From a bacterium (lineage in GTDB: Bacteria; Myxococcota_A; Bradymonadia; UBA7976; UBA1532), in NCBI GenBank assembly GCA_030426085.1, contig JAUHYW010000089.1:1-37232 (forward strand): 37,232 nucleotides of DNA, written 5' to 3'. The stretch's first letter is position 1. Each line of letters begins with the position of its first letter. Below the pieces are notes generated by a model. The model was given only the letters and a program-made list of their open reading frames with translations, searched no databases and had not been told where the DNA came from. This document shows, one piece after another, positions 586-37,232 of the stretch. The translations under genes were made by a program, and so were the position numbers.

Positions 586-586
586 G

Positions 587-2119: not shown

Positions 2120-2150
2120 GGGTCGAGCATGGCCCCGGCCGGCCCGTGGA

Positions 2151-4195: not shown

Positions 4196-4325
4196 GGCCC
4201 GATTGCACCAGAGGCGGCGGCTTCGGATCAATCGGCCCGCGGCCTGCGCGGGTCGCCTCGGGGGGATTGCCCTTGCCAAGACGGGGCCGGGCGGTCATTT
4301 TCGGACCCGACACCCGAGGAGACCC

Positions 4326-5713: not shown

Positions 5714-5738
5714 CGCGCCGCCCGCGCAGATCGGGCGC

Positions 5739-7349: not shown

Positions 7350-8072
7350 GTGCCGATCTATCTCCTCGACGAAGCGCTCGCCTTCCCCGATCCGACCAAG
7401 GCCGACCCGGCGACCGGGATCCTGGCCGTGGGCGGTGATCTGAGCCCGGCCCGGCTGATCCTGGCGTACTCGCTGGGCATCTTCCCGTGGTACGACGCCG
7501 ACGCGACGCCCATCCTGTGGCACTCCCCGGCCTGGCGCTTCGCCATGCGCCCCGGCGACCTTCACATCGGCCGCACCCTGCGCAAGACGCTGCGCAAGCA
7601 CCCGTTCGACCTGCGCTACGACACGGCTTTCGAGGCGGTCCTGCGGGCCTGCGCCGAGGTGCCCCGGCCGGGCCAGAACGGCACCTGGCTCAACCCCGAC
7701 ATGCAGGCGGCCTACACCGAGCTGTTCCGCCGGGGCTTCGCCCACTCGGCCGAGGCGTGGCGCGACGGCCGGCTGGTCGGCGGGCTGTACGGGGTGACGC
7801 TGGGCGGGGTGTTCTACGGGGAGTCGATGTTCGCCCTCGAGGACGAGGCGTCGAAGGTGGTCTTCGCGACGCTGGTGCCGGCGCTCGAGCGGGCGGGCTA
7901 CCGGCTCATCGACTGTCAGGTCTACACCGACCACCTCGCCCGCTTCGGCGCTGGGGAGTGGCCCCGGGACGACTTCCTCGAGACGCTCGACGAGGCGCTG
8001 GCGGTGATCCCCCGGCCGGGCTGGCCGGGCAGCGGCGATCGGGCCGGTCGACCGATGCGCATCCGTCGCTGA
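7350..8072 (+). CDS. aat: Leucyl/phenylalanyl-tRNA-protein transferase
   Basis: Aat transfers Leu or Phe from aminoacyl-tRNA to proteins with N-terminal Arg or Lys, marking them for ClpS/ClpAP degradation (bacterial N-degron pathway). The 240-residue product from GTG 7350 has the family features: DPATGILAVGGDLSPARLILAYSLGIFPWY near the N-terminus, PILWHSPAWRFA, NGTWLNPDMQAAYTELF, SAEAWRDGRLVGGLYGVTLGGVFYGESMFA, and DCQVYTDHLARFGA near the end. The longer open frame starting at 7206 is rejected: GTG 7350 follows GGAGGAAGG (7329-7337) and gives the normal N-terminus. It is convergent with rtcA, with stops four bases apart. Confidence 0.95.
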   Translation: MPIYLLDEALAFPDPTKADPATGILAVGGDLSPARLILAYSLGIFPWYDADATPILWHSPAWRFAMRPGDLHIGRTLRKTLRKHPFDLRYDTAFEAVLRACAEVPRPGQNGTWLNPDMQAAYTELFRRGFAHSAEAWRDGRLVGGLYGVTLGGVFYGESMFALEDEASKVVFATLVPALERAGYRLIDCQVYTDHLARFGAGEWPRDDFLETLDEALAVIPRPGWPGSGDRAGRPMRIRR

Positions 8073-8076
8073 TCGA

Positions 8077-9135
8077 TCAATCGCCGAGCGATCCCACCGA
8101 TCGCACCCCCGGCGCCGAGACGACCGTGCCGTCCGACCCGTGCGCGACGGCGAGCGCCGCGTCCCCCAGAAACGCCCGGACGACCGCGACGTGGGTCTCG
8201 GCGTGCGGCGACCACACCCCGCAGCGGAAGCAGCCCCCGGCGAAGGCCATCGGCAGGATGAGCTGATCGGCGAGGTGCTCGCCCACCGGGGCCTCGCTCT
8301 CGATCCAGGCCCGGGCCTGCTCGATCGCGTCCTCGGCGACCTCTTCGGCCGGCCGCCGCCGCCGCCCGAAGGCCGTCACCCGCTCGACCGCCGCCCCGCA
8401 GCGCAGCTCGATGGCCACCACGTTGCCCGGGCCCGGTGAGGGCAGCCGCAGGTTGCGCGCCTGATCCCGGCCCAGGTCGAACGCCCGGCGCACGACCGCC
8501 AGCTCGCGGGTGCCGATCGCGTCGGGCAGGTGGGCCGACAGCGCCCACGCCTCGAGCTCGGGGTCGCCGTCCTTCTCCATGCGCTCGAACGGGGCGCTCG
8601 GCAGCCCCGGCTCGACCTCGAGCACGAAGCGCCCCCCGCCCGCCGGGAAGAAGCCGGCCCGCTCGAATCGGGCCTCGGCCCGGACCCCCATCTCGTGCAG
8701 CGCGGGCAGGTAGATGCGCTCGAAGAAGCCGAACGGCGGCGACATGGGGTTGTGGGTGCCGCCCTCGAAGACGACGGTCGACGGCCGATCGGCGGCGAGC
8801 AGGACCGGCAGCACCGTCTGGCACACCAGCACCGCGCTGCCCGCCGTGCCCACCGCGAACTCGAAGGTGCCGCCCCGGGGCGCGCCGGGCACCAGCGTCA
8901 GGGCCGTCGACCGCAGCTCGGCCCCCGCGACCCGACCGCCGCAGACGGTGGCCACCGCCTTGACCGCGGTCAGGTGCTGCCGCAGCAGCCCGTCCTTCTT
9001 GCGCTTCGCCCGGACGTGATCGACCCGCAGCGGCCGCCCGCAGACCGCGGCCAGGCTCAGCGACGAGCGCACGATCTGCCCCCCGCCTTCGCCCATGCGC
9101 CCGTCGATGCGCACCTCGTCGTATCGCTCACCCAT
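8077..9135 (-). CDS. rtcA: RNA 3'-terminal phosphate cyclase
   Basis: RtcA converts an RNA 3'-phosphate to a 2',3'-cyclic phosphate through a covalent enzyme-AMP step. The 352-residue protein has the family N-terminus RIDGRMGEGGGQIVRSSLSLA, KRKKDGLLRQHLTAVKA, EGGTHNPMSPPF at 124-135, and HLADQ at 287-291, whose His corresponds to the adenylated His309 of E. coli RtcA. A run of His, Cys and Asp residues (GCFRCGVWSPHAETHVAVV) lies near the C-terminus. Its ATG is three bases after the rtcB stop, so both belong to one operon expected to run from the sigma-54 promoter upstream of rtcB. Confidence 0.95.
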   Translation of the reverse strand: MGERYDEVRIDGRMGEGGGQIVRSSLSLAAVCGRPLRVDHVRAKRKKDGLLRQHLTAVKAVATVCGGRVAGAELRSTALTLVPGAPRGGTFEFAVGTAGSAVLVCQTVLPVLLAADRPSTVVFEGGTHNPMSPPFGFFERIYLPALHEMGVRAEARFERAGFFPAGGGRFVLEVEPGLPSAPFERMEKDGDPELEAWALSAHLPDAIGTRELAVVRRAFDLGRDQARNLRLPSPGPGNVVAIELRCGAAVERVTAFGRRRRPAEEVAEDAIEQARAWIESEAPVGEHLADQLILPMAFAGGCFRCGVWSPHAETHVAVVRAFLGDAALAVAHGSDGTVVSAPGVRSVGSLGD

Positions 9136-9138
9136 CGC

Positions 9139-10413
<1,275 letters not shown>

Positions 10414-10472
10414 CGGATGTCTCCGTGGTGAGGGGCGGCCGGGGGTGGCCGCCGGGACGCCCCGCCACAAGA

Positions 10473-10488
10473 GCAGCGCCCGTGCCAA
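10473..10488 (-). promoter_or_regulatory. Sigma-54 promoter of rtcBA
   Basis: Read on the minus strand the site is TTGGCACGGGCGCTGC, matching the -24/-12 consensus with the invariant GG (10486, 10485) and GC (10474, 10473) separated by exactly ten bases. The predicted start point is near 10461, giving a leader of about 48 bases to the rtcB ATG with GGAGA in it. The divergent sigma-54 activator gene rtcR fits regulation of rtcBA by RtcR, as known in E. coli. Confidence 0.85.
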
Positions 10489-10518
10489 CCCCGAAAAATG
10501 GGGCTTCCGGGCGCTCGG

Positions 10519-10550
10519 GGGATACAATCGATATAGATCTCGCTAGAATC
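10519..10550. promoter_or_regulatory. AT-rich island between rtcB and rtcR; candidate RtcR upstream site and rtcR promoter
   Basis: Within 145 intergenic bases this is the only AT-rich patch (GATACAATCGATATAGATCT, then CGCTAGAATCT). It lies 30-60 bases upstream of the -24 element, a possible place for enhancer binding by RtcR. It also contains TACAAT (10523-10528) and TAGAAT (10544-10549), either of which could be a -10 box for rtcR. No strong -35 or clean inverted repeat is visible, so both roles are inference. Confidence 0.35.
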
Positions 10551-10558
10551 TGCGCGAG

Positions 10559-12214
10559 ATGGATAGCACTTCGGCCCCCAACCCCGGAGAGACCCGCCCG
10601 CTGGTGGTGCTCGGCATGTACGGCGCCACCCTCGACAAAGGCGTCGGGCCCAAGCGGTGGCATCGGTGGCGGCCGACGGTTGCGCTGTGCAGCCAGCCCG
10701 ACCTGGTGGTGCGCCGGCTCGAGCTGCTGCACGACCGGGCGATGACCCGCAGCGCGGCGCAGCTCGTCGACGACCTGGCGGCGGTGTCGCCCGAGACCGA
10801 GGTGATCCTGCGGCCGCTCGCGCTCGACGACCCGTGGGACTTCGAAGAGGTCTTCGGCGCCCTGCACGACTTCGCCCGGGCCTACCCGTTCGACCCCGAG
10901 GCCGAGGACTACCGGATCCACATCACCACCGGCACCCATGTGATGCAGATCTGCTGGTTCCTGCTCGCCGAGTCGCGGCACATCCCGGCCCGGCTGGTGC
11001 AAGCCACGCCGCCCGACCGGTGGGACAGCGGCCAGCCGGGCGGCGTCAGCACCATCGACCTCGACCTCTCCCGCTACGACGCCATCGCCCGCCGCTTCGC
11101 CGCCGAGCGGGCGGAGGGGCTGGCCTTCCTCAAGGCGGGCATCGACACGAAGAGCCCCGCCTTCAACCGCCTGATCGCGTCCATCGAGCGGGTCGCCCTG
11201 CGCACCCGGGAGCCGATGCTGCTCACCGGCCCCACCGGCGCCGGCAAGTCCCGGCTGGCGCGGCGGATCTACGCGCTCAAGAGGCAGCGGCGGCAGATCG
11301 AAGGCCCGCTGGTCGAGGTCAACTGCGCGACGCTGCGGGGCGACGGGGCGATGAGCGCGCTCTTCGGCCACACCCGGGGCGCGTTCACCGGGGCGGCGGG
11401 CGCCCGCGACGGCCTGCTGCGGGCGGCCGACGGGGGCCTGCTCTTCCTCGACGAGATCGGCGAGCTGGGCCCCGACGAGCAGGCGATGCTGCTCGGGGCC
11501 ATCGAGCGCAAGGTCTTCCTGCCGGTCGGCGCCGACCGCGAGGCGCGCAGCGACTTCCAGCTCATCGCCGGCACCAACCGCGACCTCGACGACGAGGTGC
11601 GCGCCGGGCGCTTCCGGGCCGACCTGCTCGCCCGCATCGACCTGTGGACCTTCCGCCTGCCGGCCCTGCGCGAGCGGCGGGAGGACATCGCGCCCAACCT
11701 CGACTTCGAGCTGACCCGCTGCGGCGAGCGGCTCGGCGCGCGGATCACCATCAACCGCGAGGCCCGCCGCCGCTTCCTCGCCTGGGCCGAGGGCCCCGAG
11801 GCCCGCTGGCCGGGCAACTTCCGCGACTTCGGGGCGGCCGTCATGCGCATGGCGACCCTGGCCCCGGCGGGGCGCATCGATCGGGCGACGGTGGACGAGG
11901 AGGTCGCCCGTGACGTCGCGCGCCGCGGGGCCCCGCCGCCCGCCGAGGACACCGACGCCCCGCTGCTGACCGCCGCCCTGGGCGCCACGGCCCTGACGCT
12001 CGACCGCTTCGACGCGGTGCAGCTCGCCGAGGTGATCCGGACCTGCCGCCGCCACCCGAGCCTCGCCGCCGCCGGCCGGGCGCTGTTCGCGGTGTCCCGG
12101 ACCCGGCGCAAGTCGAACAACGACAGCGACCGGCTGCGCAAGTACCTGGCGAAGTTCGGCCTGAGCTTCGAAGCCATCCAGCAGATGCCATGGGAGCAGA
12201 TGCCATGGGAGTGA
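10559..12214 (+). CDS. rtcR: Sigma-54-dependent activator of the RNA repair operon
   Basis: The 551-residue protein has an N-terminal sensory domain (about 1-180) of the RtcR/CARF type, with VVLGMYGATLDKG at 16-28 and the HITTGTHVMQICWFLLAES segment at 121-139. The AAA+ module has Walker A GPTGAGKS at 224-231, the sigma-54-contacting GAFTGA loop at 274-279, and Walker B LLFLDEIGEL at 294-303. The C-terminal region carries the DNA-binding helices (around SLAAAGRALFAVSRTRRKSNNDSDRL). E. coli RtcR activates rtcBA on sensing RNA with 2',3'-cyclic phosphate ends. The last residues QMPWEQMPWE come from a perfect 15-bp duplication. ATG 10559 has only a weak ribosome site. Confidence 0.94.
   Translation: MDSTSAPNPGETRPLVVLGMYGATLDKGVGPKRWHRWRPTVALCSQPDLVVRRLELLHDRAMTRSAAQLVDDLAAVSPETEVILRPLALDDPWDFEEVFGALHDFARAYPFDPEAEDYRIHITTGTHVMQICWFLLAESRHIPARLVQATPPDRWDSGQPGGVSTIDLDLSRYDAIARRFAAERAEGLAFLKAGIDTKSPAFNRLIASIERVALRTREPMLLTGPTGAGKSRLARRIYALKRQRRQIEGPLVEVNCATLRGDGAMSALFGHTRGAFTGAAGARDGLLRAADGGLLFLDEIGELGPDEQAMLLGAIERKVFLPVGADREARSDFQLIAGTNRDLDDEVRAGRFRADLLARIDLWTFRLPALRERREDIAPNLDFELTRCGERLGARITINREARRRFLAWAEGPEARWPGNFRDFGAAVMRMATLAPAGRIDRATVDEEVARDVARRGAPPPAEDTDAPLLTAALGATALTLDRFDAVQLAEVIRTCRRHPSLAAAGRALFAVSRTRRKSNNDSDRLRKYLAKFGLSFEAIQQMPWEQMPWE
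12182..12211 (+). repeat. Perfect 15-bp tandem duplication at the rtcR 3' end
   Basis: CAGATGCCATGGGAG occurs twice in direct succession (12182-12196 and 12197-12211), immediately before the rtcR TGA. It adds five residues in frame (QMPWE twice), and the second copy places a purine-rich GGGAG just upstream of the next ATG (12219). Confidence 0.9.
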
Positions 12215-12218
12215 CCCG

Positions 12219-12755
12219 ATGAAGGCCCCCGCCAACCCCTTCCTCGCCGCCGCGGCGGCGCTCGAAGCCGAAGTCCGCCGGCGCCACCCGGACTACGCCG
12301 CCCCCGATGGCTTCGACGGCTACGGCGAGGGGCCCGACCGCTACGTCTGCACCACCTACTGCGTCGAGATCCTGCGCCGGGCGGGCGTGCCCGTCGATCA
12401 GGCGCTGGACGACCGCATCAACATCGAAGACTTCGACCCGCCCCTCGCCGCCGCGGTGGAGCGGGGCGACGACGCGATCGCCGGCATCGCCTGGGCCCTG
12501 GCCGAGGCGGGATACGGCGAGCGGCTGGCCGACATCGAGGCCATCGCCCCCGGCGACTTCGTGCAGTACTGGTACACGACCGCCGCCGGGGGGCTGGCGG
12601 GCCACGTCGGGCTGGTCGTCGAGCGCACGCCGGACGGCATCCGGCTGCACGGATCGCACAAGAGCACCCGGGGCATCGCGGTGCACCCCGAGGTGATCCG
12701 GCTCGACAACAAGCGCGCGATCTTCGCCGTGCGGCCGAGCGCGCCCGCCGCCTGA
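12219..12755 (+). CDS. NlpC/P60- or CHAP-like putative cysteine hydrolase
   Basis: The 178-residue protein has a pattern of the papain-like NlpC/P60 superfamily: candidate nucleophile Cys in YVCTTYCVEILRRAG (C44 or C48), then PGDFVQYWYTTAAGG leading to AGHVGLVVE with candidate His129, and a later HGSH. Such enzymes cut peptide or amide bonds, often in cell walls, but no signal peptide or wall-binding domain is present, so it may act in the cytoplasm. It starts four bases after rtcR and is probably co-transcribed with it. No link between this family and RNA repair is known to me. It could instead belong to the neighbouring phage, but the tight spacing to rtcR argues for a chromosomal gene. Confidence 0.65.
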   Translation: MKAPANPFLAAAAALEAEVRRRHPDYAAPDGFDGYGEGPDRYVCTTYCVEILRRAGVPVDQALDDRINIEDFDPPLAAAVERGDDAIAGIAWALAEAGYGERLADIEAIAPGDFVQYWYTTAAGGLAGHVGLVVERTPDGIRLHGSHKSTRGIAVHPEVIRLDNKRAIFAVRPSAPAA

Positions 12756-12841
12756 ATTCCGTCGACGGTGCAAACCGCTGCACTGCGTCGGGCCCCGCCA
12801 GAGTGCGGCATCCCGCATGCTGTGGTGGCCCCCAGCTGCCA

Positions 12842-12991
12842 CGAAATGCCGATTCCAGGAACAGCAGGAACAGGCGGCCGAGCCCCGACGTCGCAGACGG
12901 TGTCGCCGTCGAGGTCGGTCGGCTCGACGCCCGCCCAGGAGGGGTTCGAGCTGTCGACGGCGTGGGCGTCGGCGAAGGTCGCCGGCAGCCC
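12842..12991 (-). pseudogene. Possible remnant of an exported Ca-binding-type protein
   Basis: One minus-strand frame gives a strikingly protein-like stretch of about 50 residues, including SSNPSWAGVEPTDLDGDTVC and a following ARPPVPAVPGIG. The DLDGDTVCD phrase resembles short acidic calcium-binding repeats of exported proteins. There is no good start and no clean end; the frame runs on into antisense of the neighbouring gene. Upstream it continues into the 60-bp array in a shared phrase (ARVVAAG), so the array may have grown at the edge of this fragment. Confidence 0.25.
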
Positions 12992-13665
12992 GGCGGCGAC
13001 CACTCGGGCGCTGGGCCCGCAGCGATCGCCGTTCACCACGCTCCGAGCCTCGGCCGAGCTGCCCGCCGGCGGCGACCACCATGCGCCGGGCGGCGACCAC
13101 TCGGGCGCTGGGCCCGCGGCGATCGAAGCCTCGGCGAGCTGCCCCTGGCGTCGGTCACCCAGGCGCGCCGGGCCGCGGCGATCGAGGCCTCGGCCGAGCT
13201 GCCCGCCGGCGGCGGCCACCATGGGCGGGCCCGTGGCGCTGGGCCCGCGGCGATCGAAGCCTCGGCCTCACCTGCCCGTTCGCCACGATCTGCCCGCCGG
13301 CGGCGACCACCAGACGCTGGGCCACGGTGATCGAAGCCTCGGCCGAGCTGCCCGCCGGCGGCGACCACTCGGGCGCTGGGCCCGCAGCGATCGAGGCCTC
13401 GGCCGAGCTGCCCGCCGGCGGCGACCACTCGGGCGCTGGGCCCGCATCGAGGCCGTTCGCCACGCTCCGAGCCTCGGCCGAGCTGCCCGCCGGCGGCGAC
13501 CACTCGGGCGCTGGGCCCGCGGCGATCGAGGCCTCGGCCGAGCTGCCCGCCGACGGCGACCACGGGCCCGCGGCGATCGAGGCCTCGGCCGAGCTGCCCG
13601 CCGGCGGCGACCACCATGCGCCGGGCCCGCGGCGATCGAGGCTCGGCCGAGCTGCCGCGGCGATC
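12990..13665. repeat. Degenerate 60-bp tandem repeat array, about 10 units
   Basis: The canonical unit is exactly 60 bp, clearest from 13335 to 13440 where two copies are nearly identical. Each has a core GCCTCGGCCGAGCTGCCCGC followed by a CGGCGGCGACCAC block, a TCGGGCGCTGGGCCCGC block and a CGATCGA link. Other copies are mosaics: some lack the middle block (near 13560), others carry inserts such as GTTCGCCACGCTCCGAG (13034-13049 and 13454-13470). The period is a multiple of three, so every frame yields a 20-residue repeat and none is clearly favoured. It lies between the last chromosomal gene and the methylase. Confidence 0.85.
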
Positions 13666-13856
13666 CACACCGCGGTTGCGCAGCCACTCAAGGTGCAACC
13701 GCCCGGGACCGCGTCCGCGCGGGCCTATTCGTCGGAGTGGCGTGGTTGCGCGGTTGCGCTGCGCCTGAACTTGGGAGGCTTCGGTGTCGGCCGACACCCC
13801 GCCCTACGCGGCACCGGGCTGCCGAAAAATCAATGGGGGGCGGATGCGCAGAACCG

Positions 13857-13875
13857 GGCGCGCGTGAAGCGCGCC
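13857..13875 (-). terminator. Hairpin downstream of the methylase gene, candidate terminator
   Basis: A perfect 7-bp stem GGCGCGC/GCGCGCC with a five-base loop starts 26 bases after the methylase stop on its coding strand. A run of five T follows about 25 bases later rather than directly, so rho-independent termination is only possible, not convincing. Confidence 0.35.
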
Positions 13876-13901
13876 ATGGCCCTCGTCGGTGCCTGAGTCG
13901 G

Positions 13902-14789
13902 TCAGGCGGCCAGGCAGCCCGGGCTGAACCAGATCGTCTCCGACCGGGCCCGCCGGCGGCCCTCGGGCGAGGTCTGGTAGCCGGCCCCGCCTCGGCACGC
14001 GTCCCACCGGTAGGTCGTCCAGCCGGCCGGCACCTCCCGCCCATCCTCGTAGCCGCACACGGCGATCCTGAGACGAGGGTCGTCGCCCACCTCGCAGGCC
14101 CAGCGCCAGACCTCGCCGGCGATGTCGCCCTGCTCGGCGGCGTAGGTCACCCCGACACCGTAGGGCGGATCGAGGAAGAGCCCGGTGCGTCGGCGCGCCG
14201 GGCCCAGCCCGAGCGCCGTGCGGCTTCGAAGGCGGGTCCAGTCGCCGCAGACGACCTTCACCGCCCGCACCCGCTTGCTGACCCACCGCAGCCGATCGGC
14301 GCCGCACCGCGCATGCACGCCGCTGTTGCTGCCGATGTTGGGCAGCCGGGGCCCGGTCGCCCCGTCGCACCAGGTCGAGCCGATGGTGGCGGACTGGCCG
14401 TGCAGCCACCAGCCGGCGAGCTCGACGTCGAAGAAGCTGGGGTCGCACCGGAGCTGCTCGGCGAGTTGGCGGCGCCGGGCCACCAGCACCGACTGCCGAG
14501 CGGCCATGTCGACCTCGATGACCGGGGTGCACGCCGCGGCGACCACCGACTCGACGTCGGCCTGGATGGCCCGCCAGGCGTTCGCGAGCAAGCCGTCGGC
14601 GTCGTTGACGATCTCCCGGCCGCCGCTGTGGTCGCCGGGGCGGTAGAGCAGGACGGCGCCGGCGCCGAAGAACGGCTCGACGTAGCTGTGGACGTCGCCG
14701 AAGCGCCGCCACACCTCGGCGCCGACCTGGCGCTTGTTGCCGAAGTAGGGGAACGGAGTTCGGACTCGCGGCGCCGATGAGCACTTCAT
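13902..14789 (-). CDS. D12-class N6-adenine DNA methyltransferase
   Basis: The 295-residue protein fits the Dam/D12 class: PFPYFGNKR at 12-20, SAM-binding VEPFFGAGAV at 37-46, and catalytic DPPY at 207-210 (in GLFLDPPYGVGVTY). It should transfer methyl from S-adenosylmethionine to adenine N6; the recognition site cannot be read from sequence. No restriction enzyme is adjacent, so it looks like an orphan phage methylase for protection or regulation. It is the last gene of a minus-strand group with the 91-residue gene and the repeat protein; 78 bases separate it from the former. Confidence 0.88.
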   Translation of the reverse strand: MKCSSAPRVRTPFPYFGNKRQVGAEVWRRFGDVHSYVEPFFGAGAVLLYRPGDHSGGREIVNDADGLLANAWRAIQADVESVVAAACTPVIEVDMAARQSVLVARRRQLAEQLRCDPSFFDVELAGWWLHGQSATIGSTWCDGATGPRLPNIGSNSGVHARCGADRLRWVSKRVRAVKVVCGDWTRLRSRTALGLGPARRRTGLFLDPPYGVGVTYAAEQGDIAGEVWRWACEVGDDPRLRIAVCGYEDGREVPAGWTTYRWDACRGGAGYQTSPEGRRRARSETIWFSPGCLAA

Positions 14790-23037: not shown

Positions 23038-24245
23038 TGCGACCGCCTGACGTTGAGGGTGTGCTCCTGCTGTCCCTTTCGCCGGTGGTGGCCGGCCCAG
23101 GCGGCCGTCTCCGATCCGGGCGAGCGTGTGGCGAGCGTGCAGATGAGGCGCCCGCGCTGGCCGTCCTCCTCGGTGGTGTAGACGAGGTCGTACTCGTCGA
23201 GGCCTCGCTGCACGCGGGCGCCGTCCGGCAGCGCCCGGCGGATCTCCCCCGGCCACTGCTGATAGAGGGTGACCTGGTGCATCCAGGTAGGGCGGTGGCG
23301 GTGGTGGTAGTGGCTGGCGAGGTTGCGCACGTCGTCGGGGCCATCGAGCCACCACGTCACCTCGCGGGTGAGGTGGCGGTAGACGATGTTGCGGATCGCG
23401 TCGCCATCGGTGACGTCCCCACCGTAGCTGAGCTCCACGAACCCGGGGCGGACCCGGGGCGGGCGGCTGGGGACCAACGCGGGGGCCAGCGGATCCGACG
23501 CCCTGTAGAGCATCAGGCTGGTGCCATCGACCGCCGTCGGGGTGTCGCCATCCCGGAAACCGAGCAGCCGCTGAAGAGTCGCGTTTTCCCAGGTGATCGG
23601 GTCGAAGACGGCCGGGTAGCTCGTCCAGACGTGCCCGTCGGCGTCGATCCCCCATCGAATCCGGCGATTGACGGGGTCCGAGGTGTCGTTGTCCAGCGCC
23701 TCGAGCGAGGTCGTGGTGGCGTCGTCGGCGTCCGCGCTACCCCGGGCGCGGAGCAGCGTCAGGACGTCCTGTGCGTAGGTCTCGCCGTAGGGGAGGGTGA
23801 ACGTGGAAGCGTCGATTCGCAGGCGGATCGTCGGCTCCACGACGGGGTTGATGCGCTGCCAGTCACGGGTCGCGCGAACGACTTGTGCAGCGACACCGTC
23901 GACGGCCCCGAGCACCGAGGCCTGCCCGGCAGGATCGATGCCAAAGATGGCGTTGCCGGAGAGCGGGTCGAAGGAGAAAGGGACGTCATCCGGTGCGTAT
24001 ACGACCAGGCGGTCGCTGGCATCCAGGTACGCACCGAAGCCGGGAGCGATGGCGAGCTGCACGAGCAGCGACCTGGAGCTGCTCGACCCTCGCCCGTTGA
24101 CGAGGTCAACGGCGTCTTCGAACCACGCATCGGCGACCTGCACCGCGCCATCGCTGCCCCGCTGCCAGCAGTCGGTGCCGTAGAAGGCGCTGCAGTCGAC
24201 GGCGCCGGCCCACATACAGCGGGGGCCGGGGTGGTGTCCCGGCAT
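23028..24245 (-). CDS. Phage distal-tail protein candidate (405 aa)
   Basis: ATG 24245 overlaps the tape-measure stop (ATGA) and gives 405 residues. Recognisable phrases are NAIFGIDPAGQASVLGAVDG, RRIRWGIDADGHVWTSYPAV and FVELSYGGDVTDGDAIRNIV, typical beta-rich virion sequence. A basic, His-rich stretch (SHYHHRHRPTW) lies near 325. In siphophages the gene after the tape measure encodes the distal tail protein, so this is the best positional candidate. No direct family match is claimed. Confidence 0.55.
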   Translation of the reverse strand: MPGHHPGPRCMWAGAVDCSAFYGTDCWQRGSDGAVQVADAWFEDAVDLVNGRGSSSSRSLLVQLAIAPGFGAYLDASDRLVVYAPDDVPFSFDPLSGNAIFGIDPAGQASVLGAVDGVAAQVVRATRDWQRINPVVEPTIRLRIDASTFTLPYGETYAQDVLTLLRARGSADADDATTTSLEALDNDTSDPVNRRIRWGIDADGHVWTSYPAVFDPITWENATLQRLLGFRDGDTPTAVDGTSLMLYRASDPLAPALVPSRPPRVRPGFVELSYGGDVTDGDAIRNIVYRHLTREVTWWLDGPDDVRNLASHYHHRHRPTWMHQVTLYQQWPGEIRRALPDGARVQRGLDEYDLVYTTEEDGQRGRLICTLATRSPGSETAAWAGHHRRKGQQEHTLNVRRSQWP

Positions 24246-26635
24246 CAGGCAACCCCCTGCTCGAAGCGGACCTCGCCGTAGCCCCGCTGGTCGTAGTGGT
24301 CGCTGATCGTGTCCCGGGCGCTGCGGGGGTCGCTCGCCCCGTGGATGTGGATGACGGTGCTCGACGTCCGCCACCCGCCGGCGCCGCCGCCCCGCGGCAG
24401 GTCGGAAGACGAAGGTTGCGACTGCGCGCTGCTGAGCTGGGGGACGGTGACCCCACCACCGCCGCCCCCGCCTGCCTTCGCTCCCGGGACCCTCTCGAAC
24501 TTCACCGCCGCTGCGACGTGCGCCCCGGCGGCGGCAAAGTGGGTCGCGGCCCCCCAGACGTCGTAGGCCGCCGCCGAGCTGAAGCCGGCGGCGATCTCCT
24601 TCGCTGCCAGCGCGAGCTCCATCACCCGCTCGATGCCCGCCAGCACTCCCTTCGAGGCCCCGACGCTCTTGGCCAGGGTCATCGCCGCGCGGCCGAGCTG
24701 GTTCGTGAAGCCGGCGACCGCAGCCACCTCGGCGGCCTGCGCCTCGATCCGCCGCTGCGCCGACTGCTCGATCAGCCGGGTCCGCCGCTCTTCGTAGACC
24801 TGGGTCAGCAGGTGGACGTTGTCGCCGTGCTGCACGGCGAGCTCGTACTCGGCGGCGTAGCGCTCCTCGAGTTGCAGGAGCGCGGTCTCCAAGACGAGGT
24901 CGCCGCCGCTGAGCTCGACCCGGCGCAGGCTGTCTCGTTCTCGGGCGGCGGCGAACCCCTCTGCGAGCGCCGTCAGCTCCCCGAGCTTCGACGACAAGTC
25001 TCCGGCCGAGACGTCGAGCAGCGCATCCACCCATGGCAACTGCACCTGCTCGTCACCGCCGAGCGCGGCGAGGCGCTCGAAGAGACCTCCGTCGGCGTTG
25101 TCGATGTTCTGCTCGAGCCAGGCCGCGAGGGTCTGGGTCTCGGCGCTCGCGGCCCGGACCGCCTTCGAGTACTCGCCGACCTTGGTGGTCACCGCGTCGT
25201 AGGCTTCGACCCCCCGGGCGGCAAACCCTGCGAGCAGGTCGAGCACGTCGGCTGCGGGCTTCTTCCCCCGGGCGAGCGCGACCCGATACTCGGCCTGCAT
25301 CACGATGGTGCGGCCGATGTACGCTGCCTCCTGGCCGAGCTGCTCGATGTATCGCTGCTGCCGCCTCGTCGTCTGCTCGAGTTCCAGCCGGAGCGAGCGC
25401 GCGGCTGCCTCCTTCTCGAGCAGCTTCTGGCGCGCCCTCTCGGCCTCCCCCACCAGAGCCGCGGTGTGCCGGGTGAAGATCTCGACGCTGCGTGTGGCGC
25501 GGTTGAGGTAGAAACCCTCCGCGCCCCGCTTGCGCAGGTCCACCAGCTCGGCCGAGGCTTGGTTCAGTTCGAGCTGCGCCTCGGCGGCGTGCTTGAGCTT
25601 CTCCTCGTAGAGCGTCGTCGCGGCCCCGGCTTCCGTCAGGCGGGCAGCGAGCCGGGCCGCCCGCTCAGGATCGAGCGCCGCAATGGAGTCGACCGACGAG
25701 AGCTGTTGGGCGGCGGCGGAGACCTCCTGCAGCGCGCCCGCGAGAGCTTCGGCCTGGCGCTTCGCCGCCTTCCCCGCATCGGTCATCTCGTACATCTTCT
25801 GCACGAACTCGACGCTGCCCTGCACGACCTCGACGAGCGCGAACCCACTGAGCAGCTTGATGGCGTCTTCGAAGTCGCCGAGCCGGCTGATCACGTCGCC
25901 GAAGCGCCCGTAGGTCTCGTTGAGGTCGCCGTTGATCTCGTCGAAGGCATCCCCGAACGAGCGGCGGGCTTCCTCGGCCCCCTCGGCGATCCCGTCGAGC
26001 CCCCCGCCCTCGTCGGAGCCTTGCCGCTCGATCGCGTCGGCCCGTTCCCGGGCGTGGGCGGCCTGAATTGCTTCGAGGTCCCGCCCCTGCCGCCGGGCAC
26101 GTTCGATCTCCTTCTGGTGGCGGACGTCGATGAGCGCCAGCTCGCGCTCGTGCGCGTCTTCGATGGCGCGGGCCCGTGCCTCGGCGTCGGCGAGGGCCAC
26201 CTGACGGGCTTTGGCGAGTGCGCGTTCCTCGGCCTTCGCCTGGCGCTCGGCCTCCCGCTCGGCCTTGGCTGCGATCTTCTCTTCGAGCTCCGCGCGCTGC
26301 TTGGCGTGCAGCGCCTCGAGGTCGACGAGGTTCTCCCCGCGCCGCTTGGCGGCGGCGACTTCGCGCTCCTGGCGCAGGTCGAGCAGCCGGGTGCGGCGGG
26401 CCTCCTCGTCTTCGAGCAGGCGGATGCGCCGCTCCGCGTTCTTTCGGGTCGCCGCTGCGATGCCGGTCTCGGCCTTCTCGACCTTGGCGCCGGCCGCCTG
26501 CAGGGTTCGCGCGACGGACTGCCCCCGGCGCTCGAGCCCCTGCAGCGACGTGTCGGCGGTCCGGATCTCGTTGTCGAGGTTCTTCGCTCCCACCGACCCG
26601 AAGGCCACCTCGAAGCGTCGTCGCACCTCACCCAT
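24245..26635 (-). CDS. Tail tape measure protein
   Basis: The 796-residue protein from ATG 26635 has the classic layout. Residues about 30-230 are a long coiled-coil rich in Ala, Glu, Arg and Lys. Further helical segments follow to about 600. A hydrophobic Ala-rich region at about 620-720 (GRAAMTLAKSVGASKGVLAG, KEIAAGFSSAAAYDVWGAAT) comes before a Gly-rich linker (GGGGGGGVT) and a short C-terminal domain with STVIHIHGASDP. Tape measure length sets tail length at about 1.5 angstrom per residue, so roughly 0.12 micrometre is expected. The longer frame to 26773 is rejected, as MGEVRRRFEVAFG is the natural start. Confidence 0.85.
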   Translation of the reverse strand: MGEVRRRFEVAFGSVGAKNLDNEIRTADTSLQGLERRGQSVARTLQAAGAKVEKAETGIAAATRKNAERRIRLLEDEEARRTRLLDLRQEREVAAAKRRGENLVDLEALHAKQRAELEEKIAAKAEREAERQAKAEERALAKARQVALADAEARARAIEDAHERELALIDVRHQKEIERARRQGRDLEAIQAAHARERADAIERQGSDEGGGLDGIAEGAEEARRSFGDAFDEINGDLNETYGRFGDVISRLGDFEDAIKLLSGFALVEVVQGSVEFVQKMYEMTDAGKAAKRQAEALAGALQEVSAAAQQLSSVDSIAALDPERAARLAARLTEAGAATTLYEEKLKHAAEAQLELNQASAELVDLRKRGAEGFYLNRATRSVEIFTRHTAALVGEAERARQKLLEKEAAARSLRLELEQTTRRQQRYIEQLGQEAAYIGRTIVMQAEYRVALARGKKPAADVLDLLAGFAARGVEAYDAVTTKVGEYSKAVRAASAETQTLAAWLEQNIDNADGGLFERLAALGGDEQVQLPWVDALLDVSAGDLSSKLGELTALAEGFAAARERDSLRRVELSGGDLVLETALLQLEERYAAEYELAVQHGDNVHLLTQVYEERRTRLIEQSAQRRIEAQAAEVAAVAGFTNQLGRAAMTLAKSVGASKGVLAGIERVMELALAAKEIAAGFSSAAAYDVWGAATHFAAAGAHVAAAVKFERVPGAKAGGGGGGGVTVPQLSSAQSQPSSSDLPRGGGAGGWRTSSTVIHIHGASDPRSARDTISDHYDQRGYGEVRFEQGVA

Positions 26636-27062
26636 GACGGGCTCCAGCAGCCATCTGGGCCTCTTCGATGGCGCGCCGCTCTTGGAACGCGCGGAGAGCG
26701 TCGACCTCGGCCGCTGCAACATCCAGTGCGGCCAGGGTGCGCACTGAGGGTTCGACGGGCCGGCCATAGCCATCGGCGATGCGCCGCAGGGTCACGAGGG
26801 AGCGCCGCACGATCGGGGCACTCGCCTCAGCAGCCGGACAGGCGGGGAACGCCATGTCCGCCAGGGCCCCGCCGGCTGCCGGGAAGACCCTCCTCCCGAT
26901 GAAGACGACTCGGCCGTCGTCATCGGCGCTCGCCAGGGGGTGCCCCGGGTGAACGGGGCCGCCGCAGTCGCCTCGCAGTCGGCGCAGGGCGGGCCGGCAG
27001 CGCTCGCAGTCCCAGCCTGCGTCGCGGTCGGTCAGCCAGACACCGGCGACGAGGCCCCGCCT
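26628..27062 (-). CDS. Tail assembly chaperone, frameshift-expressed extension (gpT-like)
   Basis: This frame is open from before the slippery site to TGA 26628 and overlaps the tape-measure gene by eight bases. Between 27062 and 26856 it contains no ATG, GTG or TTG, yet it encodes plausible protein: GLVAGVWLTDRDAGWDCERC, then DCGGPVHPGHPLA and DDDGRVVFIGRRVFPAA. Independent initiation at ATG 26855 would give only 75 residues and lose the CxxC part. A CTG overlapping the upstream TGA (27035) is a less likely start. Reading by -1 slip at CCCAAAA gives 144 extra residues on the upstream protein (422 in all), as in the lambda G-T chaperone arrangement. Confidence 0.75.
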   Translation of the reverse strand, partial: RRGLVAGVWLTDRDAGWDCERCRPALRRLRGDCGGPVHPGHPLASADDDGRVVFIGRRVFPAAGGALADMAFPACPAAEASAPIVRRSLVTLRRIADGYGRPVEPSVRTLAALDVAAAEVDALRAFQERRAIEEAQMAAGARHG

Positions 27063-27895
27063 TTTGGGGGGCCGAGGACCTTCATGCGCGCGACGTGTCC
27101 CATCGCCTCCGATTGCTGGGGGTCGGGCAAGCGATCGAAGTGGTCGCTCCCCCCCCAGCCGTCGACGACGACGGTCTGGCGGGCCTCGTCGCGCATGATG
27201 TCGCGGCTCCGGCGCCGGTAGGCCCGCAGCGCGCGACGCTCCTCGTCGTCGAGGTCATCCTCGGAGAGGGGTCGTCCGACGCCATCGAGCAGCGCGTCGA
27301 CCACATCGACCAGCTCACCGACGGCGCTGGCATCGCCCGGGTCGGCCTTGACGGCCGCGAGGGTGCGCTCGAGCCGCGAGGCGCGGCTCGCCAGACCCGG
27401 CATGTTGATGGCCCGGGCGGCGGTCGCCGCGAGCCCCTTGAGCGCGGCCGTCCGAGCGGTCTCGGCCGCCTTCTCGGCAGCCTGTTCGTCCAGGCCCTCG
27501 ACGTCGACGTCGATGACCACCTGCACCCGATGCTCGGCGGCCCACTCGTCGAGGCGCTCGGCGACGTCTCGGTGCGCCAGGCCTCGCACCTCGGTGTCAC
27601 GCTCGCGGATCGACCGGGCCAGGGTCTCCCCGAGCTTGTTCGGCCAGCCGGCCCGATCCTCGGCGGCGTCCTGCATCGCCTGGGTCAGCGGCCGGTAGGT
27701 GGCCCAAGTGGCATCGGGGGGCACGGGGACGGCGTGGCGCTTCTTCTTCACGACGACGACGACCTGGTCGGGAGTGACGCTCTCCGGCCCCATCGACCCG
27801 TAGGAGTAGCCGACGTCGCCGGCCATGGCGTCGCCGAAAGCGGGGTCGCTCCCGAACGGCAGCCGCACCCCTTGGTCGCATCGCGGACTGATCAT
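27032..27895 (-). CDS. Tail assembly chaperone, 0-frame product (gpG-like)
   Basis: The 287-residue protein starts at ATG 27895, overlapping the preceding stop (ATGA), and ends at TGA 27032. It contains QVVVVVKKKRHAVPVPPDATW near 45, a long acidic helical middle (AEHRVQVVIDVDVEGLDEQA and an Ala-rich helix), a helix-rich SEDDLDDEERRALRAYRRRS, and a C-terminus ending PPKGGASSPVSG. It lies between the tail tube and tape measure genes, the fixed place of the G gene in long-tailed phages. The slippery site lies ten codons before its stop. It is longer than typical gpG proteins (about 140 residues), so extra domains may be present. Confidence 0.65.
   Translation of the reverse strand: MISPRCDQGVRLPFGSDPAFGDAMAGDVGYSYGSMGPESVTPDQVVVVVKKKRHAVPVPPDATWATYRPLTQAMQDAAEDRAGWPNKLGETLARSIRERDTEVRGLAHRDVAERLDEWAAEHRVQVVIDVDVEGLDEQAAEKAAETARTAALKGLAATAARAINMPGLASRASRLERTLAAVKADPGDASAVGELVDVVDALLDGVGRPLSEDDLDDEERRALRAYRRRSRDIMRDEARQTVVVDGWGGSDHFDRLPDPQQSEAMGHVARMKVLGPPKGGASSPVSG
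27062..27068 (-). promoter_or_regulatory. Programmed -1 ribosomal frameshift site CCCAAAA
   Basis: On the coding strand the 0-frame codons read GGC CCC CCA AAA GGC. C_CCA_AAA fits the X_XXY_YYZ heptamer: Pro- and Lys-tRNA can re-pair with CCC and AAA after slipping one base back. Reading then continues in the -1 frame into the Cys-containing extension without a stop until 26628. Confidence 0.75.
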
Positions 27896-28299
27896 GATCC
27901 CTCCCGGTGGTGATCGAGGAAGCGCTCGAACGTGCGCGTGGCGAGCTGCTCGAGGTCGCGAATGGCCGCGTCGCCCAGTTCGAAGGTCGAGAACCGCGCG
28001 AACACGTGACGCGCGTGCCGCGCCGTCGGACGCACGGCGACCTCATCCGCCCGACGCTGGGCGGTGAGGCCGTCGAGCGTGGCACCCGAACGCCGGAGCG
28101 TGATGCGTTCACCGGCTCTTCGGGGGTCGCGGTGGGTGCCGAGCGCCTCGCCGTAGGCATCGACGCCTCGAGCCGCTGCGGCCCGAACGCCGTCGATGAA
28201 CGCGCGAGCGGAGGCGGTCAGCAGGTCGCGCCCGATCAGGCGGCTCGCCGGCCGCCTGCGCCCACGCGGGTGCAGGCGTACCCCCCAGCGCCGGTTCAC
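27892..28299 (-). CDS. Tail-completion / HK97 gp10-like protein candidate
   Basis: GTG 28299 overlaps the tail-tube stop (GTGA) and gives 135 residues. The first 30 residues are very basic (NRRWGVRLHPRGRRRPASRL). A helix with SARAFIDGVRAAAARGVDAY follows, then a beta part with GERITLRRSGATLDGLTAQ, AVRPTARHARHVFARFSTFE, and a final helix. The size and the late pattern of strand, RHARHVFARF and C-terminal helix recall phage neck or tail-completion proteins (HK97 gp10 / Mu gpG types). Confidence in the exact role is low; phage origin is firm from coupling. Confidence 0.5.
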   Translation of the reverse strand: MNRRWGVRLHPRGRRRPASRLIGRDLLTASARAFIDGVRAAAARGVDAYGEALGTHRDPRRAGERITLRRSGATLDGLTAQRRADEVAVRPTARHARHVFARFSTFELGDAAIRDLEQLATRTFERFLDHHREGS

Positions 28300-29645
28300 G
28301 CCAACCCCAGCTTCAACGGGGCGGTGCCGCCGCTGTCTTCGCTGATGTTGGGCCCGAGGCCGAACATCAGCGGGATCCGGTAGAAGTCTTTGCCGAAGTC
28401 GAAGCGGCGTACGTCGGTCTTGAGCGTCGCCGCCGGCACGACCCACCCCCCGCCGTGCTGCCCGACCGGGCCCATCGGCAGCGCGAGCGCCAGCGCGTTG
28501 CGGTAGGCGTCCCACAGCCGGCGCTGCAGCGCCGCCAGATCGTCGACTTCCTGGCTGAGCAAGAGCGAGATCTCGGCCGACATGCCATCGACCTCGTGTG
28601 GACCGGGGCCTAGCCCATCGAAGTCGCCACGGCGTCCGAGGGTGTTGGTGATCTTGATCGAGACCTCATCGACGTAGAGCCGCTCGCCGCCGAGCATGAT
28701 CGGGGCCGTGAGCGTCGGGTCGGTGCGGTCGAAGCTCGAGCCGCTGCTCATCTGGGGGCGGGTGCCGGCCCAGGTGAGGATGCGCCTGCCGGGCGGTTCG
28801 TAGGGGATGGCATCCGTATTGGTGCCCGCAACCACCGCGGCGTCGCCGCTCGCGTCGATGATCAGATCGAAGTTCATCGCGAAGTCCGCTTGGACCGCCC
28901 GCTGGTTCATCGTGACGGACAGCTCGCTCCAGCGCCCCCCGAAGCAGTACTCGCGCCAGCCCGCACCATCCATCCGTAGCGCGACCGACGGACCCAGCTC
29001 CAGGTCCGAGCGGGGCTTGCCGAAGTCGAACGTCTGGCACAGCTCGACAACATCCGCCTCGGCGAGGGCGGCGCCGAGCGGCAGCAGCTGGCGCACGACG
29101 CCTTCCGCCAGGCCCGAAACCATCGAGGCGTGTTTGCGCCCCCCGACGGTGCGAGTGACGACCTGGCCGACGTGCATATCAGCCGGCACGGCGGCGCAGG
29201 TCCACTCGTTGGCGTCGTTGCTCCCGGTCGCGGCGAGCGTGCGGGTGGTGATGGCGTCCCGGACCAGGCTGCCCGACCCGAGCAGCTTCGCGAAAGCGAT
29301 CGCGAGGTGGCTGCCCCACCCGCCACCGAACGCGGGCACGCTGTGCGGCATCACCGAGATCGACCCGGCGCCGGCGCGGTAGATCTGGGGCGTGCCGCTG
29401 CTGTCGAGCGTGTCGGGCTCGGCGGCCGGCTCGTAGTAATCGCCCGCCTCATGTTCGGTTTCGAGCATGACCGGGTCGCCGATCTGTTGCACAGCGCCGC
29501 GGGCCGGCATGAACGGTGTCCAGGTGTCGCCGAGCAGCGACACGTCGGGCACGGGGGAGTCAGCCCCGATGAGCGCGTAGAGCGGATCGTCGCCGTCGTC
29601 GATCTCACGGGCCACGGCGATGGCGGTCGGTCGTCGGGACTGCAT
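28296..29645 (-). CDS. Tail tube (major tail) protein candidate
   Basis: The 449-residue protein precedes the chaperone and tape-measure genes, where the tube protein lies. The C-terminal half reads like a tube fold: GGERLYVDEVSIKITNTLGR followed by acidic, Gly-rich turns, MSAEISLLLSQEVDDLAALQ, and TDVRRFDFGKDFYRIPLMF. Residues about 60-250 contain RTVGGRKHASMVSGLAEGVV and other beta-type pieces. It is larger than usual tube proteins (150-250 residues), so an inserted or surface domain is likely. It starts three bases before the stop of the upstream 257-residue gene. Confidence 0.6.
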   Translation of the reverse strand: MQSRRPTAIAVAREIDDGDDPLYALIGADSPVPDVSLLGDTWTPFMPARGAVQQIGDPVMLETEHEAGDYYEPAAEPDTLDSSGTPQIYRAGAGSISVMPHSVPAFGGGWGSHLAIAFAKLLGSGSLVRDAITTRTLAATGSNDANEWTCAAVPADMHVGQVVTRTVGGRKHASMVSGLAEGVVRQLLPLGAALAEADVVELCQTFDFGKPRSDLELGPSVALRMDGAGWREYCFGGRWSELSVTMNQRAVQADFAMNFDLIIDASGDAAVVAGTNTDAIPYEPPGRRILTWAGTRPQMSSGSSFDRTDPTLTAPIMLGGERLYVDEVSIKITNTLGRRGDFDGLGPGPHEVDGMSAEISLLLSQEVDDLAALQRRLWDAYRNALALALPMGPVGQHGGGWVVPAATLKTDVRRFDFGKDFYRIPLMFGLGPNISEDSGGTAPLKLGLA

Positions 29646-34705: not shown

Positions 34706-35308
34706 TCAGCGACCGCGCGAGCTGCGGTAGGCCGCCGCCGCGGCCTTGGCGAAGTCGCCGCCGAACTTCTCGGTCGCGAGTTGGTGGATGGCCGCCGGCG
34801 ACAGCGGGTCGACCGTGCCCTGCGACAGCCCGTGGCTGGTGCGCTCGGCCGGGACCAGCGCCTCGCGCTTGCCCCACTCGGCGAACAGCTCACGGTCCTC
34901 GTCGGTGGCGTTGGGGCTGTGGGCCCGGCGGTGGTCGGCGAGGTACCGCGTCCGGTCGGTCGGGCTGACCGTGCGGCTCGCGAGCAGCTCGGCGAAGCCC
35001 CGCTCGCCGTCCGCGAGGTCGAGCCGCGCCTGCAGCGCGGCGAGCTGGGTCTTGTGCTCGATCGTGGCGGCCGCCAGCGCGTGCTGGATCACCTGTTCGA
35101 TCTTGCCCTGCGACAGGTTGGCGCCGTCCGCGGTGCCCTGCGACAGGCTCGCCATCGGCGACCCGCCGGGCATCTCCTCGCCGGCGGGCTCTTCGCCAGC
35201 GGGCTCCTCGCCGGCCGGCTTCATGGCGGCGAGGCACGCCTCGAGCTGGTCGCCCAGCGCCGCGAAGCCGGCCGCCATCATGTCCTTGAGCTGCTGGATC
35301 TCTTCCAT
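34706..35308 (-). CDS. Nested scaffold protein (internal in-frame start)
   Basis: ATG 35308 (Met 362 of the fusion) is preceded by GAGGAGG at 35323-35317 with eight bases between, the best ribosome site in this part of the window. It would produce a separate 200-residue protein with the same C-terminus: MEEIQQLKDMMAAGFAALGD, the (PAGEE) repeat, coiled-coil segments (IEQVIQHALAAATIEHKTQL) and a final helical tail. This is the arrangement of lambda C/Nu3 and Mu I/Z, where a protease gene contains an in-frame scaffold gene. Confidence 0.6.
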   Translation of the reverse strand: MEEIQQLKDMMAAGFAALGDQLEACLAAMKPAGEEPAGEEPAGEEMPGGSPMASLSQGTADGANLSQGKIEQVIQHALAAATIEHKTQLAALQARLDLADGERGFAELLASRTVSPTDRTRYLADHRRAHSPNATDEDRELFAEWGKREALVPAERTSHGLSQGTVDPLSPAAIHQLATEKFGGDFAKAAAAAYRSSRGR

Positions 35309-36391
35309 GTCGGGGCCCTCCTCGGAGCCGTCGGTGGTCGGGTGGTCGGCCCGGGGGTCGCTGAGACGGACGCGGTCCAGCTTCTCGTGGGCCTGTGCGG
35401 GGTTACGGGTGAGAGCGAGGCCGTCCATGAGGATCGAGCCCAGCAGTTGCCGGGTTGCGGGGTGGAACGACGGCCCGGGGGCGATCTCCGGGCTCGACCA
35501 GATGGCGCCGCTCGAGGCGGCGACGTACTCGGCGAGCCCGGGGTTGTAGGCCGGGGCCACGGCGAGGCTCTCGCCACCGTCGACGAGCCAGGCCGCGACG
35601 ACCGTCCCCGCGCTCGGAGGCCGGTGCTCGAGGTTGATCGGGATCTCCTGGCCGGCGTCGAACGCGGCCACGATTGCCGCGAGATCCTCGCGGGTGATGG
35701 TGCCTCGGCGCTCGCCGCCGGGGATGTGGCGCCGCTTGGCGCCGGCCATCACCGTCGCCGCCACCCGCTGATAGATCTCGCCCGTGGCGAGACACCGGAA
35801 CGGCTTTCCGAGTACCCAGCCGTCGGTGAGCTCGATCCCATGGGTGCGCCGGCCGGCTTCGGCCTCGAGGTCGACGCCCCACCGCAGCTCGCGATAGGGC
35901 ACCCGCGCAGCCAGATTCTCTCGGCCGCGACCCAGCTCGAGCACCGCCCGCGCGTCGCCGAGCGCGACTTCGAGGGCCATGGCGGTGCACCCGCCCGACG
36001 GGAGCGGACCCGAGTACTCGCCCGCGCCCACGTAGGCGACCGTCGAGTGGGCGATGAACTCCGGGTGGGTCTCCGGCGTTGGAATCCCGCGTGCGGCGAG
36101 GGCTGCCCGGAGCCAGTCCCGCAGCGTGGCAACGGGGCCGGGGTCGTCGACGAGCAGCACGGCCGCCCGCTGCTCGGTGTCGCCGAGATACTCGACCGTC
36201 GAGCCCAGACGGATCGGGACCGGCTTCGCGGCCCGGGCCACGGCCTCGACGACCTCGAGCACGTCGGCGAAGGGTGCGGTGCACTCCGGCGAGAAGCAGA
36301 GGGTCACATGCGGCGCGCCACGCTGTTCGTCGGGTGGATACTGGGCGGCGCAGGCCTCGGGCAGCCGGATGCCGAGGTAGAGGTCAGGCAT
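34706..36391 (-). CDS. 2H phosphoesterase - prohead protease - scaffold fusion
   Basis: The 561-residue protein has three parts. Residues 1-125 show the two HxT/S motifs of 2H phosphoesterases (2'-5' RNA ligase/cyclic phosphodiesterase superfamily): H28-V-T30 in GAPHVTLCFSP and H115-S-T117 in FIAHSTVAYVG, 87 residues apart as usual. Residues about 180-340 match Mu gpI-type prohead proteases, with PINLEHRPPSAGTVVAAWL (251-269) and the family phrase LALTRNPA (325-332). Residues 362-561 are a charged helical scaffold with (PAGEE)3 and three LSQG motifs. It overlaps the portal stop by eight bases. Whether the 2H domain is enzymatically active is inference from retained motifs. Confidence 0.75.
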   Translation of the reverse strand: MPDLYLGIRLPEACAAQYPPDEQRGAPHVTLCFSPECTAPFADVLEVVEAVARAAKPVPIRLGSTVEYLGDTEQRAAVLLVDDPGPVATLRDWLRAALAARGIPTPETHPEFIAHSTVAYVGAGEYSGPLPSGGCTAMALEVALGDARAVLELGRGRENLAARVPYRELRWGVDLEAEAGRRTHGIELTDGWVLGKPFRCLATGEIYQRVAATVMAGAKRRHIPGGERRGTITREDLAAIVAAFDAGQEIPINLEHRPPSAGTVVAAWLVDGGESLAVAPAYNPGLAEYVAASSGAIWSSPEIAPGPSFHPATRQLLGSILMDGLALTRNPAQAHEKLDRVRLSDPRADHPTTDGSEEGPDMEEIQQLKDMMAAGFAALGDQLEACLAAMKPAGEEPAGEEPAGEEMPGGSPMASLSQGTADGANLSQGKIEQVIQHALAAATIEHKTQLAALQARLDLADGERGFAELLASRTVSPTDRTRYLADHRRAHSPNATDEDRELFAEWGKREALVPAERTSHGLSQGTVDPLSPAAIHQLATEKFGGDFAKAAAAAYRSSRGR

Positions 36392-37232
36392 CGCCGACCA
36401 GCTTGCGGGGGACGCCGCCGGAGGCCGGGTCGTAGTTCTTCGTCGACACCGGCGGAGCCCCCTCGGGCGGGGTCAAGCGCTCGAGCTCGGCGAGCGTGCG
36501 CCGGCCATCCTCGGGGTCGATGTCGGCCAGGCGCATGAGCCGGTCCCAGATGACCGGGAAGCGGGCGATGTTGACCGCCGGCTGCAGCAGGTTGGGCAGG
36601 TGGTTGAGCAGGTCGGCGAGCGGGTCGTCGGCGACGCCGAAGTGCTTGAGCCGGGGGTAGTCGTTCGGGTGCTGCGGGCCGTAGCTCAGGTCGAGCACCC
36701 GCTGAACCGAGCCACCGCCCGGGCGGGGTCGACCGGAGAGGGCGTCGCACCAGGTGTCGAGCACGCGCACGACGAGCTGGGTGAACGCGTCTTGCAGAAC
36801 CTGCCCGACGTTGTAGCTGCCAGTGCCCGAGGTGCCGAGTTCGAGCATGTTGAGCAGGTACGCCGAGAGGATCTGCTCGTAGGCGAACCGCAGCACCGAG
36901 AGGATTCGCTCGGGGTTGAAGGCGTCCTGCCCGACGATCTCGACCCGGAACTCGGGACTGTCGAGCAGGTAGCTCGCTTCGCCGCCGGCGTACTGCTCCA
37001 TCACGCTGACGAAGCGGTCGAACATGTCGTCGAAGTCGGCGTCCTGGTAGATCCCAGTGCCCGCCCGGCGGTCGATGGTCGCCTTCGGCACGCCAACGGC
37101 GTACTTCATAGCGCGGGCTGACGCCCGCAACCCAAGGGCGATACTCAACCGCTGACGGGAGAACGAACACGGCGCCGCTCGGGTAGAGGTCAGGTTGCGA
37201 CATCCAACGACCACCCGAGGCGGCACCGTGAA
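36384..37232 (-). CDS. Portal protein, DUF935 (Mu gp29-like), 5' part outside the window
   Basis: The frame is open to the right edge; the visible part is about 280 residues, so the N-terminal half of a normal portal (about 450-500) lies outside. Portal-like features: GVPKATIDRRAGTG, FDDMFDRFVSVMEQYAGGEA, ILSVLRFAYEQILSAYLLNM, and the family phrase LGTSGTGSYNVGQVLQDAF, followed by YGPQHPNDYPRLKHFGV. Portal dodecamers thread DNA into the head. GTG 37224-37226 is the outermost start in view but is not likely to be the true start. Near the right edge a second frame looks more protein-like, so a +1 frameshift between about 37120 and 37180 is possible. Confidence 0.7.
   Translation of the reverse strand, partial: FTVPPRVVVGCRNLTSTRAAPCSFSRQRLSIALGLRASARAMKYAVGVPKATIDRRAGTGIYQDADFDDMFDRFVSVMEQYAGGEASYLLDSPEFRVEIVGQDAFNPERILSVLRFAYEQILSAYLLNMLELGTSGTGSYNVGQVLQDAFTQLVVRVLDTWCDALSGRPRPGGGSVQRVLDLSYGPQHPNDYPRLKHFGVADDPLADLLNHLPNLLQPAVNIARFPVIWDRLMRLADIDPEDGRRTLAELERLTPPEGAPPVSTKNYDPASGGVPRKLVGDA

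Follow-up and report, generated by a model that had tools for sequence, protein, structure and literature searches.

Probable programmed −1 ribosomal frameshifting at CCCAAAA in a divergent tail assembly chaperone gene of a Myxococcota prophage

Does the gene lying between the tail-tube and tape-measure genes of this prophage, carried by an uncultured Myxococcota bacterium, encode one tail assembly chaperone or two? The window (the whole stretch of 37,232 nucleotides analysed here) contains at this place a 0-frame ORF for a G-like tail assembly chaperone (27032..27895, minus strand; 287 aa, 278 of them up to the slippery heptamer near its 3' end), followed by a long stretch that is open in the −1 frame and has no start at the junction. 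We consider it very likely that this one gene gives rise to two tail assembly chaperones through programmed −1 ribosomal frameshifting at CCCAAAA. Normal reading would yield the short chaperone G of 287 aa, and tandem tRNA slippage from CCA_AAA to CCC_AAA would give a minority long product, GT, with a predicted length of 422 aa (26628..27895, minus strand) and a junction that, from the translation, would read GPPK-RRGLV. On the lambda model, G would be expected to form a coat on the tape measure protein and the T part of GT to recruit tail tube subunits, and both would then be absent from the virion. We infer in this scheme the slippage in this host, the rate of slippage and the roles of G and T. 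A slip on CCCAAAA requires the proline tRNA to re-pair from CCA to CCC, and its efficiency may differ from that on GGGAAAA.

The slippery site and the reading frame behind it

The 0-frame ORF begins with an ATG preceded, at three bases, by GGGAGGG, and ends in GGC CCC CCA AAA GGC GGG GCC TCG TCG CCG GTG TCT GGC TGA. The first-pass annotation had pointed to a canonical X_XXY_YYZ heptamer near the stop of the gene before the tape measure, and C_CCA_AAA is seen at 27068-27062 (27062..27068, minus strand) in phase with the 0 frame, at a position homologous to that of GGGAAAA, GGGAAAG or GGGTTTC in relatives. Nine sense codons separate it from the 0-frame TGA (27034-27032), which is the tenth codon after the heptamer. 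A second in-phase heptamer, C_CCC_CCA (27065..27071, minus strand), overlaps the first within the same C6A4 run, and slippage on either CCCAAAA or CCCCCCA would lead to the same peptide, GPPKRRGLV. In trials with the gene's own codons in shuffled order, the last 21 codons contained a heptamer whose Y was A or T in 0.4% of cases and any XXXYYYZ in 5.9%; taken alone, without the relatives, these heptamer statistics are suggestive of a programmed frameshift.

Downstream of the heptamer the −1 frame, which encodes a T-like domain (26628..27062, minus strand), stays open for 144 codons up to a TGA at 26630-26628 and runs over the start of the tape measure gene. The sequence confirms the earlier reading that this frame has no ATG, GTG or TTG before 26855. 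The ATG found there lies 69 codons downstream of the heptamer, beyond three of four conserved cysteines, and leaves the 75-residue ORF that had been foreseen as a separate small gene. Immediately past the heptamer the pattern of low-GC and high-GC codon positions shifts to the −1 phase, and within the tape-measure gene it is back in the 0 phase, so that the −1 frame looks coding by its codon-position composition.

The length of 287 residues first reported for the 0-frame protein is correct, compared with about 155-230 residues for most G-like ORFs of the relatives. The excess is accounted for by an internal helical insertion of ~80-100 residues (about residues 95-200) that is absent from most relatives; the structure model of the window G is of moderate confidence only.

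Relatives and conservation of the junction

Searched alone, the 0-frame protein matched only within its own genome, with no relative in Pfam, PHROGs or 50,697 phage records, nor in the scanned viral and genome contigs or 95 other genomes of the phylum; the −1-frame protein likewise matched no Pfam or PHROGs family. A first round of relatives was found via the tail tube protein (28296-29645) and comprised eight loci, five in Myxococcota MAGs and three on viral contigs. L008-L010 are located in a genome of the same genus and L007 in one of the same family, to which L022, a further tube relative found by profile, also belongs. Tube relatives were present on five viral contigs, and those of L027, L028 and L031 extend past the tube. 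The gene order in these first-round relatives is tube, G, a stretch open in the −1 frame, and then tape measure or contig end. One weak tube match (G012), whose neighbours resemble contractile injection system genes, was set aside. In a second round, the T protein of L028 alone was used as query and retrieved 75 viral (IMG/VR) loci, with L037 corresponding to L028 itself. Because this search used T peptides and the heptamer was no criterion, the conservation of the heptamer among these loci is not circular.

The anatomy of the junction, the conservation of heptamer and −1-frame protein and the gene order can be read directly from these loci. The first-pass annotation had likened the locus to the G/G-T chaperone arrangement and had proposed comparing heptamer and −1 frame in related prophages; the comparison upheld the arrangement and found both elements conserved, L010 being the exception. 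A slippery heptamer occupies the junction in all 75 second-round viral loci (70 GGGAAAA and 5 GGGAAAG), with GGGAAAATAG as the junction of a viral relative, and a canonical heptamer is found in eight of the nine first-found loci including the window (7/8 relatives). The junction is GGGAAAA in L007, L008, L022, L027, L028 and L031 and GGGTTTC in L009; in L010 it reads GGATTTC, which is not canonical, and an ATGA stop-start overlap is found at the homologous place. The loci with a canonical site other than the window thus all carry GGGAAAA or GGGAAAG, save L009, and the window carries CCCAAAA. The 0-frame stop lies directly after the heptamer in 59 of the 61 distinct viral junctions.

Profile searches linked the window to the same group. 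A T profile of 61 relatives, built with the window excluded, gave a single match in the window's six frames, which lies in the −1 frame (E 7.8e-23) and starts at 27050, four residues past the heptamer, and a G profile of the relatives, again with the window excluded, matched the 0-frame protein (E 1.7e-7). Since the window also matches the relatives, in the same order, in its genes for tube, tape measure, portal and protease and in several others, we assign it to this group. The −1-frame protein is conserved in the relatives from a few residues after the heptamer, and two tryptophans and four cysteines (in CxxC, RGxCGG and CP motifs) are invariant or nearly so across 67 loci, a cysteine pattern that suggests a metal-binding domain. 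The median dN/dS of the −1 frame was 0.08 (96 viral pairs), a value indicating, at the sequence level, strong purifying selection on the −1-frame protein in the viral relatives.

Constraint was also apparent in the codon whose last base opens the heptamer. In the viral set its amino acid may be E, S, A, Q, V or T, but the third base is invariably G, and codons rare in these viral genes (TCG, 7% of Ser; ACG, 8% of Thr) are used there too. On the tree of 67 loci, this codon underwent at least 16 amino acid changes (among E, S, A, Q, V, T, L and P), and its third base is G in all loci of the tree but the window; L010 was omitted from the tree, and its codon, GCG, also has G as third base. That the codon changes its amino acid and yet keeps the third base points to selection on the nucleotide signal. 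In 44 of the 61 distinct viral junctions, GGTGA, often within AGGTGAT, occurs in the 12 nt preceding the heptamer. This motif looks like the 3' portion of an extended Shine-Dalgarno sequence and could be an internal stimulator, or a mere consequence of the LGDxGK protein motif.

Downstream RNA structure and alternative explanations

In the window, a candidate stimulatory stem-loop (27014..27056, minus strand) starts 5 nt after the heptamer, with a predicted folding energy of −24.3 kcal/mol and a z-score of −1.28; 18% of nearby control windows fold as well, which places it not above the GC-rich background, and the stem at 27056-27014 is a candidate stimulatory element only. Among lambda-type G/GT frameshifts, such a downstream structure is an optional feature. 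Over the 55 distinct viral junctions, the 50 bases from 5 nt after the heptamer had a mean z of −2.5 relative to shuffles, compared with −0.2 for nearby controls, and the first base pairs of the stem lie 5-9 nt after the heptamer; the rank test against controls (p 1.5e-25) treated related loci as independent, so its significance is overstated. RNAalifold over all 55 distinct viral junctions did not yield a shared structure, since the register of the stem varies among them. Among 23 junctions in one register, 86.6% of the pair cells hold, compared with 51-76% when slid, and covariation is modest, 3 pairs having changed on both sides.

If the T part were a separate protein made from its own start, by re-initiation after the G stop or from an unusual start, the heptamer would be incidental. 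The ATG of L010, which overlaps the G stop (ATGA) at a junction with no canonical heptamer, and the ATG directly or shortly after the heptamer in L027, L028 and L037-L043 would fit such a scheme. A start at the junction, named by the first-pass annotation as evidence against frameshifting, is thus present in this minority, but it is absent from most relatives and from the window. An ATG occurs within eight codons after the heptamer in 5 of the 61 distinct viral junctions and in none of the other 56, and a −1-frame stop lies within five codons upstream in 56 of the 61, so that in most viral junctions slippage is the only evident entry into the −1 frame. In L007, L022, L027, L028 and L031 the −1-frame stop is no more than four codons upstream of the heptamer, and no upstream start can therefore yield T. 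The viral loci with a junction ATG still keep the slippery heptamer, GGGAAAA, and the window's first ATG, GTG or TTG comes too late to include three of the four conserved cysteines, all of which makes a separate start very unlikely. L010, L027, L028 and L037-L043 could make T partly or wholly by re-initiation; for the window, whose junction lacks a start, these exceptions are of no consequence.

Two further explanations would attribute the change of frame to the homopolymers rather than to the ribosome. A wrongly assembled or base-called C6A4 run, with the true gene being one continuous frame, is compatible with the draft state of the assembly (178 contigs) and with the break falling at a homopolymer run; independent assemblies of many other phages, however, change frame at the same place, mostly without a long homopolymer, and we rejected this very improbable explanation on that contradiction. 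RNA polymerase slippage yielding the −1 product could likewise use the C6 run followed by A4 of the window, but in the GGGAAAA and GGGAAAG of the relatives the homopolymers are three and three to four bases long, generally considered insufficient for transcriptional slippage, and all these sites keep their X_XXY_YYZ phase with respect to the 0 frame, a constraint that only slippage of the ribosome would impose. Given these short runs and the kept phase, transcriptional slippage was also rejected and seems the least probable of all. Programmed −1 ribosomal frameshifting at CCCAAAA is thus our preferred explanation for the window.

Neighbouring genes and relation to known tail chaperones

The gene at 24245..26635 (minus strand), whose ATG at 26635 overlaps the end of the −1 frame, has homologs at the corresponding place in L008, L009, L010 and L031, and the gene at the tape-measure position in L028 matches the phrog_1538 tape measure; by homology and position, the product is the tape measure protein. 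On the other side, the major tail tube protein (28296..29645, minus strand; 449 aa) was assigned from its homologs and from its structure model, which matched the tail tube proteins of T5 and P74-26 with E values of 1e-7 to 3e-6; with a mean pLDDT of 58 the model is only moderate, and we describe the product as probably tail-tube-like. Two overlapping ORFs are found between tube and tape measure, and the window has an extra small ORF between tube and G (27892..28299, minus strand) that overlaps both and is homologous to small tail-region genes of L008 and L009. The annotated genes of L028 comprise a Mu-like portal (PF06074), a Mu-like protease (PF10123), a major head protein (phrog_1005) and the tape measure (phrog_1538).

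Three further observations concern the prophage and its surroundings. The gene at 34706-36391 (minus strand) encodes a 2'-5' RNA ligase/2H phosphoesterase domain (PF13563, E 1e-8, residues 16-121) followed, in the same fused protein, by a region with homology to the Mu-like head protease found in L028; we know of no described pairing of these two domains. Positions 1-14789 correspond to host chromosome, with genes for RtcA, RtcB, RtcR, Leu/Phe-tRNA transferase and AMMECR1. At the other extreme, the contig ends (37232) inside the portal gene (36384-37226), and the prophage is therefore cut.

The tube, G and T profiles found no PDB relative by sequence, and the structure model of G found nothing by Foldseek; G, as modelled with moderate confidence, appears to resemble no known chaperone in Pfam, PHROGs or PDB folds, either by sequence or by fold. 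G, tube, a 1013-aa tail-region protein and a capsid candidate had no match in the 50,697 phage genome records, and neither had the T protein of L028; that of L031 had one weak match (E 0.01).

The lambda G/GT heptamer is GGGAAAG, which five of the viral relatives also carry; that of the window is CCCAAAA. As in lambda, the site lies between the tail tube and tape measure genes, the −1 slip falls near the end of the first ORF, and a long −1-frame extension follows from which, by analogy, a minority fusion product would be expected. The group differs from lambda in the four near-invariant cysteines of its T part, in the downstream stem-loop of most viral relatives, and in having no detectable similarity, by sequence or fold, to any known G or T protein. 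The use of the signal and the gene position are shared with P2 and its relatives, SEA-PHAGES actinobacteriophages and haloarchaeal siphoviruses, whose protein families are different. The mechanism of the G/GT tail chaperone frameshift has been described for lambda, and this frameshift is widely conserved in long-tailed dsDNA phages despite low sequence similarity (PMC5009743), with 2,397 annotated cases in SEA-PHAGES genomes (PMC10274946). The system of the window is a divergent lambda-type G/GT frameshift, of a kind already known.

These results extend the lambda-type tail frameshift to an uncultured phage group without a close match in the searched phage genome records and whose chaperone has no Pfam or PHROGs model, on the strength of a comparison of more than 80 loci. 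In most of these genomes the −1 part would be missed or shortened by gene callers. It is possible, if rather doubtful, that T represents a new cysteine-rich, probably metal-binding chaperone domain and that the frameshift has been supplemented or replaced by ATG re-initiation in L010, L027, L028 and L037-L043. The four-cysteine T part and the few loci with a junction ATG offer a natural comparison between frameshifting and re-initiation and, should re-initiation indeed operate in some lineages, two ways of making T would be comparable within one phage group.
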